DNA from: Psychrobacter sp. 28M-43
GTDB taxonomy: Bacteria; Pseudomonadota; Gammaproteobacteria; Pseudomonadales; Moraxellaceae
DNA: 64,000 nt
Reading direction: 5' to 3'
NCBI RefSeq assembly: GCF_014770435.1
Contig: NZ_CP061739.1
Span: 2,232,001 to 2,296,000, forward strand
In this document: positions 17,619 to 42,125 of the stretch, piece by piece
Numbering within the stretch: position 1 is the first letter of the stretch
Layout: the number at the start of each line of letters is the position of its first letter
Notes under the pieces: model-generated
Told to the model about the DNA's origin: nothing
Database searches by the model: none
Seen by the model: the letters and a program-made list of their open reading frames with translations, nothing else
Translations under genes and position numbers: made by a program

Positions 17619-17695
17619 AGGCGTATAGCTCAGTTGGTTAGAGCGCTACCTTGACATGGTAGAGGTCGTTGGTTCGAATCCGATTACGCCTACCA
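17619..17695 (+). tRNA. tRNA-Val (anticodon GAC)
   Basis: Full cloverleaf by eye: acceptor AGGCGTA/TACGCCT, D stem GCTC/GAGC, anticodon stem CTACC/GGTAG enclosing TTGACAT with anticodon GAC, variable loop AGGTC, T stem with loop TTCGAAT, discriminator A, and an encoded CCA. A terminator follows immediately. The 3' 50 nt of this gene recur at 42037-42086, which marks it as the insertion target of an integrated element. Confidence 0.97.
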
Positions 17696-17734
17696 GATTC
17701 GAAAAGCCCCAATCTTAAGATTGGGGCTTTTTTT
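17646..17734 (+). repeat. 89-bp direct repeat, copy 1 (att-like site in tRNA-Val)
   Basis: From the anticodon stem of tRNA-Val through its terminator, these 89 bp are identical to 42037-42125. Similarity continues about 23 bp further to GCTGTAG, with only transition differences and a one-base change in the T-run. Here the tRNA is intact, as expected for the end of an element inserted in the tRNA 3' part. Confidence 0.92.
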
Positions 17735-17735
17735 T
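17702..17735 (+). terminator. intrinsic terminator after tRNA-Val
   Basis: A perfect 30-bp palindrome (core GCCCCAATCTTAAGATTGG) followed by T8. It is part of the duplicated 89-bp unit. Confidence 0.92.
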
Positions 17736-17843
17736 GTCCGTGAAATATGGGCTGTAGGTTACTAAATGATTAAACACTGCCTGACAGCTCATTTTTGAAA
17801 GATAGCGAACATTAGTAGCAAGCTCAAAATCATGCGCTGCAAT

Positions 17844-18131
17844 TTAGGTTTGCTGTACCGATTCATCATAGTTATGAAGTGGTGCGATACGTTTAGAGAA
17901 ATCAGGCTGTGGATAGCTGAAAAAATAATCTGAATTATAAGCATTTACCAACTCTTCAACAGAAACACCTTCCTCAGAAAGAGATGGCTTTTCACAAAAA
18001 GATATCAATTCTGTTGGATTATTATCAATAGGATCAGAGACGTTGTTAGTATTGAAAAACCCATAAAAATGAGGCTGTACGTTGACAGGTATGGGTATAG
18101 TTATTAGTATCGTTTTGTTCTCAGCGTGCAT
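17844..18131 (-). CDS. hypothetical protein, 95 aa
   Basis: Unrecognised product. The protein begins MHAENKTILITIPIPVNVQP and contains an acidic middle (SLSEEGVSVEELVNAYNSDY). No signal peptide, membrane segment or known motif is visible. Its ATG overlaps the end of the upstream minus-strand frame by 11 bp, suggesting translational coupling. It is the first open frame inside the putative tRNA-associated element. Could be a real small gene or a fragment of a larger one. Confidence 0.4.
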   Translation of the reverse strand: MHAENKTILITIPIPVNVQPHFYGFFNTNNVSDPIDNNPTELISFCEKPSLSEEGVSVEELVNAYNSDYFFSYPQPDFSKRIAPLHNYDESVQQT

Positions 18132-40200: not shown

Positions 40201-40203
40201 AAT

Positions 40204-41082
40204 TTACTCTCCTAAGCCAGCATTTTTAACAATGCAGTTAAAATCATCCTGATCAGGTATGTTTGATTCACTCTGCGACCAAATCTCAGCTACCTGTTGC
40301 GCCAAAGGCAATTCTAATCCCATCTCACTGATCATATTTTTTGCCAGACGTACGTCTTTACGCATCAGCTCCATCGTAAAACCGGAATCAAAACTTTGAT
40401 TGAGAATCCAACGAGGGAAATTAACTTCACTGATTGCACTACGACCTGAGCCAGCATTCAAACCAGCAATAAGGTCTGCAGGATCGAGGCCTGCCTTGGT
40501 GCCCAAAGCTACTGCTTCGGCAGTGGTCACGAGATGTGCGGCACATAGTAGATTATTAATGAGCTTAGCGGCATGTCCATTGCCAGACTTGCCCATGTAG
40601 ACCACTTTTGAGCTTAGCGCATCCAGATACAACTGAGCACGTTCAAGGGAGCTGCGTTCGCCGCCAACAACCATTACCATGGTACCGGCTTCAGCACCCG
40701 CCGGACCGCCACTGACAGGACAGTCCAATAACTGATGACCTAACTGATCCAGCTCTATCGCGAGTACCCGCGTCACCTCTGGTTCTGAGGTAGAAGTATC
40801 AATGATCAGAGTATTAGGCTGAGCGCAGTCAATAATGCCACCTTTACCTTTAACAACTGCTTGTACATGCTTTGCCATTGGCAAAGATAGAATGATGACG
40901 CTAGATTGAGCACATAGCGCTTTGATATCTGCAACCACATTCACGCCGATTTCCTTGGCAGCTTGGCTCTGGACCTCTCCTATGTCCGTGCCGAATACCT
41001 TAAAACCTTTGCGAAGCAAAGACTGAGCCATACCATTACCCATACGGCCTAAACCGACAATACCTATATTTCCCTTCGTCAT
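40204..41082 (-). CDS. 3-hydroxyisobutyrate dehydrogenase-family oxidoreductase
   Basis: NAD(P)-dependent beta-hydroxyacid dehydrogenase. The Rossmann motif is IVGLGRMGNGMAQSLL, the substrate motif is DCPVSGGPAGAEAGTMVMVVGG, and the catalytic Lys is in GHAAKLINNLL. 292 residues is standard. It is the promoter-proximal gene of the operon, with AAGGA before the ATG. A hydroxyacid dehydrogenase feeding an aldehyde dehydrogenase is chemically sensible, but the true substrate, such as 3-hydroxypropionate or tartronate-type acids, is inference. Confidence 0.9.
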   Translation of the reverse strand: MTKGNIGIVGLGRMGNGMAQSLLRKGFKVFGTDIGEVQSQAAKEIGVNVVADIKALCAQSSVIILSLPMAKHVQAVVKGKGGIIDCAQPNTLIIDTSTSEPEVTRVLAIELDQLGHQLLDCPVSGGPAGAEAGTMVMVVGGERSSLERAQLYLDALSSKVVYMGKSGNGHAAKLINNLLCAAHLVTTAEAVALGTKAGLDPADLIAGLNAGSGRSAISEVNFPRWILNQSFDSGFTMELMRKDVRLAKNMISEMGLELPLAQQVAEIWSQSESNIPDQDDFNCIVKNAGLGE

Positions 41083-42036
41083 ATCTATTCCTTTAGTCTT
41101 GTGTTTTCTGTCAGTCTTATTATGACTAATAAACTATTAAGAAGAATCACAACAAATAATCTTTTGTGTTCTAAAAAAGGCAACACTAGCGTAAGAAACG
41201 AGATAGGTTTCTCTTCACTTCGTTTTTTTACTTATAAAAATGGGTAGGATGTTGCTGAAATAGCTATAGCGAGCTTATAGCAGACATAACCGATTGATGA
41301 CTTAGTTCTGGGAACGTTGTTATTTCGGTTTTGGTGGGCTGAGTTTTTACATGAATACTGAGACCGAGTACAAGGTTCAAATAGTTATCAGCTCGGCTGC
41401 TTTAGTTAACTGGTAACGACAAACCTTGAGTAGTGTGATGGTACGGTGGGATGACGAGAAATCTTAAAGATAGGACACAGCCATTGGTTGCAATGGTATT
41501 TGTAGAAATGTTTTCGGATCGTCCATATGGTGAGCATTTTATCCAGCGTATTTCTCTCACAACGTTGATTGGGGTAAACGATAGTTGTGATAGTTTGGGA
41601 AAACAATCGAAGTCGACGAAAAAAAATATCGAAACTCACGACTTATTAGTCGATTTTCTTAAAAATAGTTGGCGTTACAACTTGTTTGTCAAAGCTGTTC
41701 GGGATTCAAGGGACCATCCGTATCCATCGATAGATACTCACTTAAATACAAGCCAAACCCGAATTCTTTAATAAAATTTGAGCCTACTGTCACCTATCCC
41801 TGAATATAAAGCATGAGAAGGCTCTACTTACTTGTTATTTAATGATTTATTTTCAATATTTTTGGTCTAATCCAACAATAGAGTAGAGGTAAAAATACTA
41901 TAAAAATACAGTGCCCAAATACGAGTTAAATTTTATTAGATTGCAATTTACATCGCGATTATTCAATCATATAATATCTGTAAACCAATAACCTAGGTAC
42001 ATATAAGACATCGTCATAATATGTGTTCTGGTCGAC
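41083..42036. other. 954-bp region between the DUF3100 operon and the second att copy
   Basis: No gene is recognised with confidence. A 106-codon plus-strand frame (41451-41771, starting MTRNLKDRTQPLVAMVF) and a 77-codon minus-strand frame (41406-41639) overlap each other; neither resembles a family I know. The start of the region should hold the promoter of the minus-strand operon. The right end becomes AT-rich just before the repeat, as expected next to an insertion junction. Confidence 0.4.
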
Positions 42037-42125
42037 CTACCTTGACATGGTAGAGGTCGTTGGTTCGAATCCGATTACGCCTACCAGATTCGAAAAGCCC
42101 CAATCTTAAGATTGGGGCTTTTTTT
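42037..42125 (+). repeat. 89-bp direct repeat, copy 2 (partial tRNA-Val plus terminator)
   Basis: Identical to 17646-17734. It comprises the last 50 nt of tRNA-Val including CCA (42037-42086), then the terminator palindrome with T7 (42093-42125). The upstream half of the tRNA is absent, so this copy is not a functional tRNA. That is the expected appearance of the distal att site of an element integrated into a tRNA gene. Confidence 0.92.

Follow-up and report, generated by a model that had tools for sequence, protein, structure and literature searches.

A 24.4-kb integrase-less segment behind tRNA-Val(GAC) of Psychrobacter sp. 28M-43, very probably the tRNA-proximal member of an array of accreted islands

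Accretion of elements at one target gene and their decay to cis-mobilizable elements (CIMEs) have been described, as set out in PMC5704250. For Dehalococcoides, PMC3146451 describes tandem islands within 100 kb downstream of a single RNA gene, ssrA; 16 of the 31 islands have an integration module. In PMC4383910, an anticodon-centred site is given for 2083 of 3919 islands of the Islander database, and the table there holds only four tandems of three or more islands. Here we analyzed a stretch of 64,000 nucleotides from the genome of Psychrobacter sp. 28M-43 (NZ_CP061739.1, one contig of 3,115,700 bases), hereafter the window, which corresponds to genome positions 2232001-2296000. Within it, a segment of 24.4 kb (island A) lies between two copies of a direct repeat at the 3' end of tRNA-Val(GAC). 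We consider it very probable that islands integrated site-specifically behind this tRNA gene have accreted into an array, now integrase-less, of which this segment is the member nearest to the tRNA. At least two, and probably three, old islands appear to stand in a row.

The sole tRNA of the window, as predicted by ARAGORN, is an intact tRNA-Val(gac) at 17619-17695 on the forward strand, which would be the integration target. Its 3' 50 nt and the following terminator, for which a hairpin was predicted, make up repeat copy 1 (17646-17734, forward strand; the core of the left attachment site, attL). Copy 2 (42037-42125, forward strand) contains only the last 50 nt of the tRNA plus the terminator. 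Both copies are identical in 89 of 89 positions and cannot be extended by a single base on either side. Beyond them a likeness runs on to GGGCTGTAG / GAGCTGTAG, with one T fewer in the T-run and four transitions. A sequence-only reading of this stretch had described the exact repeat, the intact and the truncated tRNA, and a continuing similarity with only transitions apart from the T-run, and all of this was reproduced. It had also proposed an attachment (att) pattern, i.e. an island integrated in the tRNA 3' end, and this proposal is supported and extended by displaced repeat copies and a linked integrase in related genomes. The locus shows the arrangement by which tRNA-integrated islands are recognized, with an intact tRNA at one end and a displaced 3' fragment in the same orientation at the other. 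A genome-wide search with the tRNA and terminator gave 20 matches, among which only copies 1 and 2 held the tRNA 3' half and the terminator together; the remaining matches were other tRNA-like places or terminator-only. Our literature searches found no paper on this tRNA-Val site in Psychrobacter, which is not proof that none exists.

The site was further compared among relatives, which are referred to by our own handles. In G006 two repeat copies lie 8,194 bp apart, and when the G006 flanks were joined without this 8.2-kb insert they gave one alignment of 11.8 kb with 95.8% identity to G007, which represents a closed site. In the 20 kb of G007 that were fetched, nothing matched the insert itself. 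For island A, its own flanks joined across the segment aligned contiguously (query 1-1014) to G009 and G010, where an integrase-side (int-side) element end directly follows the tRNA. Island A was also absent from G024, in which the genes of the next element, B, follow the tRNA past a divergent stretch of 0.4-0.5 kb, and from G018, in which ppiC follows immediately after the tRNA and similarity to the own genome stops past ppiC. The closed site and the length polymorphism which the sequence-only reading had asked to look for are thus present in G006 and G007, and its refuting alternative, a core synteny of the genes between the repeats, was not observed, as A is missing behind the tRNA in G009, G010, G018 and G024. 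ppiC as a fixed right anchor was dropped, because it is near the tRNA in some relatives only.

The locus was fetched at least in part for 31 of 35 congeners, for many of them only partly. Displaced copies with an identity starting at the anticodon stem were found in 11 of the 31 (G003, G006, G009, G010, G015, G017, G019, G020, G022, G024 and G029). At the border nine of these, like our copy 2, read GACCTAC where the tRNA reads GCGCTAC; G019 and G020 carry variants. Judged from where the displaced copies start, strand exchange would have occurred within the seven-base anticodon loop TTGACAT (17651-17657, forward strand), between the stem arms CTACC and GGTAG.

A comparison of the DNA on both sides of copy 2 with relatives indicated that more than one element is present. 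To its right, 42126-42404 (forward strand; similarity from 42133) is 87% identical to the stretch of G010 that separates tRNA-Val from the integrase gene, and contains GGTGACC-type repeats at 42220-42226, 42231-42237 and 42242-42248, which are putative arm sites. A 37-aa remnant of the xre-type regulator that precedes the integrase gene in intact elements is encoded at 42318-42428 on the reverse strand (tblastn with the G010 protein, 65% over 37 aa); the small gene and the integrase gene of G010 are missing from this end. To its left lies a conserved attR-side end of the element family (41783-42036, forward strand), to which similar DNA, in part or whole, was found in 11 congeners (G003, G004, G009, G010, G015, G017, G019, G020, G027, G029 and G035), with a displaced copy directly adjoining it in eight of the 11. 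Since an int-side end lies on the right and the opposite end on the left, copy 2 would join the far end of A to B, and by this comparison it is the junction of two elements, attR(A)/attL(B). This junction, the probable reach of the array to about 71.2 kb and the integrase family all go beyond what the window by itself can show.

The GGTGACC repeats were tried and rejected as a general int-side mark, since they occur right of the tRNA in just three of 12 integrase-bearing relatives (G010, G022 and G023); the other nine have another type of int-side end. Int-side ends come in at least two types. The GGTGACC type is found to the right of many displaced copies, yet in only these three integrase-bearing tRNA-proximal elements, as though one end type had replaced another in the course of time.

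In G010 tRNA-Val and the GGTGACC-type repeats behind it are followed by the genes for a minus-strand HTH_26 regulator, for a 71-aa protein that matched no family and for a 398-aa integrase with the domains Arm-DNA-bind_2 and Phage_integrase. Size and position of the 71-aa protein allow the guess that it is an excisionase (xis). Twelve of 35 congeners encode an integrase with at least 83% identity, without exception 0.76-0.89 kb past the tRNA-Val match; the one in G022 has an internal stop and that in G027 is cut short near the contig end. A contig scan of named genomes returned 39 loci, five of which came from other phyla, had 25-30% identity and were excluded. The remaining 34 loci (at least 80% identity), some of which are partial genes and whose genomes overlap with the congener set, were all from Psychrobacter, and 30 of them had a complete tRNA-Val 786-950 bp upstream. 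As for the other four, L137 and L139 follow a displaced tRNA fragment, the tRNA of L129 is truncated at the contig end and the contig of L130 begins within the integrase gene. The best match to this integrase in the own genome is only 28% identical and lies at genome position 997668, away from the array.

Two further observations were made in the relatives. A pair of very large proteins is encoded in an island at tRNA-Val in G010 (L050:7-2223 and 2114-5548), the 1144-aa one with a Phage_integrase domain, and downstream of the pair lies a gene for a protein with weak similarity to a HINT domain. Weak PF00589 matches with similar frame lengths were present in G003, G015 and G029. In several congeners another tRNA-like match (query about 26-142, 71-72%) has an integrase gene of about 60-66% identity some 1 kb away, e.g. 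G035 C1:585600 and 587777, which suggests a sister integrase family with another tRNA target.

No PF00589 integrase was detected between the repeats or in the whole array by a six-frame search at E<=1, and the five matches of the genome all lie elsewhere, in agreement with the earlier statement that no intact integrase is visible. Both 89-bp att cores of A are kept, and a recognizable int-side arm is absent at its left end, with arm sites in general being putative. The left part of A (17758-20473) is AT-rich (34% GC) and was found in comparison with relatives to have no xre, xis or int; 17758-18981 resembled none of the int-side ends fetched from relatives, and the small open reading frames at 17844-19183 matched no Pfam or PHROGs family. 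The absence of GGTGACC repeats right of copy 1 carries little weight, given the nine integrase-bearing relatives with another end type. The suggestion of the sequence-only reading that the element may be immobilized would fit the absent integrase and a left end unlike the int-side ends of relatives. A decayed and internally deleted insertion sequence (IS) lies at 19355-20072, i.e. near one end of the island as previously noticed. It is 84% identical to L062:1003-2023, which belongs to an IS whose inverted ends measure 24 nt; the relative in G022 is about 1.07 kb long and has inverted ends of this length. A 76-aa piece of the remnant had no Pfam or PHROGs match. Base composition was dropped as an island marker, as the GC difference is too small (A 41.8%, B 41.0%, C 42.4%; left flank 43.9%, right flank 43.0%) except in the 34% left part of A.

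Farther from the tRNA, two terminator-only matches were found in the array, at genome position 2293605 (31 bases, 90%; window 61605) and at 2303166 (65 bases, 88%; window-equivalent 71166). The former belongs to a probable decayed copy 3 (61605-61667, forward strand), which consists of the terminator and a GCTGTAGCGGAAAA tail. When one mismatch was allowed, this 14-mer matched genome-wide only at copy 2 and copy 3, in both cases exactly and beside an array terminator. At the corresponding place in G009 the right flank is 90% similar and a degenerate tRNA 3' half is still present, which we considered a stronger argument for copy 3 than the 14-mer. A decayed copy 4 lies beyond the window (window-equivalent 71166-71230; L010:7166-7230), with terminator and flank at 88%, followed by ppiC. 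The block C between them starts with genes for a nitroreductase, a hydrolase and a protein of DHBP-synthase type (61779-64000, reverse strand; Pfam) and runs on to copy 4. Block C is common to G009 and G010. The decayed tRNA-Val/terminator remnants that bound it suggest a probable third element, reaching to about 71.2 kb. Its Pfam set (window-equivalent 61.8-71.1 kb) looks like a rut-type pyrimidine-degradation set. Decay of the copies increases with distance from the tRNA, which suggests that the newest island is the one nearest to it.

These observations can be brought together in the following model. Psychrobacter would harbour a family of elements with genes next to one end for an XRE regulator, for a small protein that occupies the position of an excisionase, and for a tyrosine integrase. 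The integrase would recombine the site of the element with the tRNA gene at the anticodon stem-loop. As the element brings a tRNA 3' half and terminator of its own, the tRNA would stay whole, and the old 3' half would be displaced to the far end. New elements would enter beside the tRNA and push older ones away, here A, B and probably C. Each of these elements would then have lost its integrase, perhaps by deletion, and A also its recognizable int-side end, and A would have turned mosaic by acquiring or fusing cargo such as a heme block and a catabolic block.

The genes enclosed in island A are accessory, as had been noticed before, and include heme uptake genes, a catabolic operon and small unknowns (Pfam). 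A heme-uptake cassette (20507-28553) encodes an ABC ATPase, FecCD, a binding protein, HemS/ChuX, a TonB receptor and HmuY. It is 92.8% identical to G008 over 8.1 kb, compared with 77.9% for the core GST gene, and 88.5% and 80.1% identical to G006 and G025, respectively; in all three genomes the block is on another contig than the tRNA. The middle genes (29128-34657) encode HxlR, a thioesterase, an abhydrolase, two YdcZ exporters, LysR and two proteins without Pfam match. The catabolic cassette M1 (34840-41440) encodes LysR, DUF3100, an M20 peptidase, an aldehyde dehydrogenase and a protein of 3-hydroxyisobutyrate-dehydrogenase type (Pfam), and was found with different neighbours at the same hotspot in at least five other genomes (G009, G017, Psychrobacter sp. 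NZS113 at L139, G067 and G118). In G017 it is next to a displaced copy, with the tRNA on a different contig, in G067 it begins about 40 bp past the att similarity, and in G118 it is inverted. For most pairs M1 is more similar than the core gene: 95.1% against 76.6% for G009 and NZS113, 90.0% against 77.2% for own and NZS113, 90.4% against 81.4% for own and G067, 89.5% against 78.1% for own and G118, 89.7% against 81.3% for G009 and G017, 89.7% against 84.2% for G017 and NZS113, and 85.4% against 81.1% for own and G017. On these comparisons island A is a mosaic. A 2.9-kb piece of M1 had some match in 34 of 105 genomes and a single match of at least 2.5 kb in 19, the own genome included. In eight of these 19 carriers it shares a contig with tRNA-Val and lies no more than 75 kb downstream of it, in G017 it is beside the displaced copy, in three it is far off and in seven on other contigs; M1 thus travels, and not only at tRNA-Val.

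The heme receptor was found in 10 of 57 genomes, the own included, at E<=1e-100. In the seven other congeners the receptor gene and the tRNA-Val match are either on separate contigs or hundreds of kb apart, and we rejected the receptor as a neighbour of tRNA-Val elsewhere. In G006 (C3:191445-204344, partly L089) a relative of the Val integrase with 54% identity is encoded some 10 kb away from the receptor gene, and the contig of the receptor in G008 (C16; L088, L095) also has a relative with 60% identity, about 50 kb off. This is possibly a sister island family at another site.

The cargo of B (42505-61370) comprises genes for MgtC, a P-type ATPase/MerR, an AidB-type protein, an M24 peptidase, arginase, ornithine cyclodeaminase, Lrp, GntR, MatC, TctABC and TauE (Pfam). 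At the tRNA-Val site of NZS113 (G106 C16:352229-388792; L139, L169) one displaced copy and three further partial copies follow the tRNA within 37 kb; close to the first displaced copy is a gene encoding an rve transposase domain.

Several points speak against an array of accreted islands. Island A was found in no relative as a complete unit with an integrase, and in the DNA flanking the 34 integrase loci (up to 10 kb) none of its cargo was found apart from M1 in L139, where the integrase is a remnant. Rightward of 17757 A has no int-side end, and its left border is given by the repeat alone. Scarcity of the GGTGACC repeats means that they are no general element mark, so that their absence at copy 1 proves little. 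Copies 3 and 4 of the own genome lack a tRNA part, and terminator matches about as weak as that at 2293605 also occur outside the array (2337773 and 2443817), which makes the terminator match insufficient by itself for copy 3; a backward control of the 14-mer likewise gave two matches with one mismatch allowed. Among the relatives, G009, G010, G017, G019 and G027 have further, more decayed copies that start later than the anticodon stem, and G004, G027 and G035 have right-end-like DNA without a full copy adjoining. Besides G006/G007 the closed sites are less exact, as G018 keeps only ppiC on the right and G024 has the divergent stretch, and many of the relatives are draft genomes. Finally, for own and G009 the identity is lower in M1 (92.2%) than in the core (95.8%), and the core comparison consists of one gene (GST).

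Another explanation holds that integrase-less islands, although non-autonomous, are still exchangeable, either with a related integrase acting in trans or by homologous recombination through the shared tRNA/att sequences and flanks. Psychrobacter species would then trade integrase-less cassettes such as M1 behind tRNA-Val by way of their att ends and a resident integrase present by chance, or by homologous recombination. M1 at the hotspot of six genomes with differing neighbours and in an inverted state in G118, and its 95.1% identity between G009 and NZS113, would be consistent with such a trade, as would the matching integrase, which is held by 12 of the 35 congeners and was found neither genome-wide in own and G009 nor in the 8.6 and 40 kb read of G067 and G118, with a remnant at the NZS113 locus. 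However, the left end of A, being unlike any int-side end, should hinder excision via attL, M1 also moves in other ways, and the tRNA contig of G017 carries the integrase. Independent integrase loss after each acquisition would give the same pattern. We regard both this explanation and the trade in cassettes as tentative and rather doubtful. If true, the tRNA-Val site would be a genus-wide exchange point at which no island needs an integrase of its own.

The order of regulator, small protein and integrase at an element end resembles modules of temperate phages and satellites, so that a decayed prophage or phage satellite at tRNA-Val was also considered. Among the scanned proteins of A, B and C no phage structural or packaging family was found with Pfam, and PHROGs matched none of 10 small proteins (seven own, three of G010) at E<=0.01, which leaves a phage origin disfavoured and very unlikely. 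We give almost no credence to readings without site-specific integration, in which ordinary homologous recombination duplicated the tRNA end or the terminator is a dispersed repeat, even though terminator-only matches about as strong as copy 3 occur outside the array, since copy 2 is the only second copy with tRNA sequence genome-wide, the preserved copies start at the same tRNA stem in 11 congeners (nine with the same element-type border) and the integrase is linked to tRNA-Val; for copies 1 and 2, the only matches with tRNA half and terminator, a dispersed repeat, which the sequence-only reading had named as a refuter, was rejected.

With the array of accreted islands as the preferred explanation, the 24.4-kb anomaly becomes a set of island insertions ordered by decay, with a known target, a probable enzyme family and a natural pair of occupied and closed sites. 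Since versions with and without integrase occupy a single site across a genus whose members are mostly environmental, this locus is a good test bed for the spread of cargo after integrase loss.

The array is a well-resolved case of a kind already described, namely accreted, integrase-less and CIME-like islands. CIMEs, as PMC5704250 describes them, lack integration and transfer genes, are bounded by att sites and stack at one target gene. The array resembles them in its stacking and in the loss of integration genes, and A keeps both 89-bp att cores. It differs in that A has no recognizable int-side end and in that a new element would enter at the intact tRNA. The likeness of A to CIMEs refers to the integrase-less structure between two att cores and not to descent from a conjugative or mobilizable element. 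Like the islands in PMC4383910, the locus has a tDNA with a displaced 3' fragment and a probably anticodon-centred site. Islander requires an integrase inside each island, and since the array has none, it should be rejected by that program. The ssrA array of Dehalococcoides, as presented in PMC3146451, is likewise tandem, with metabolic cargo and a conserved element-side motif beside displaced repeats. Target and enzyme are different, with tmRNA and the serine recombinase DsiB there, and tRNA-Val and a tyrosine integrase of Arm-DNA-bind_2 and Phage_integrase domains, found in relatives, here. By analogy, the Dehalococcoides ssrA array may be regarded as a close functional parallel to the array behind tRNA-Val in Psychrobacter.

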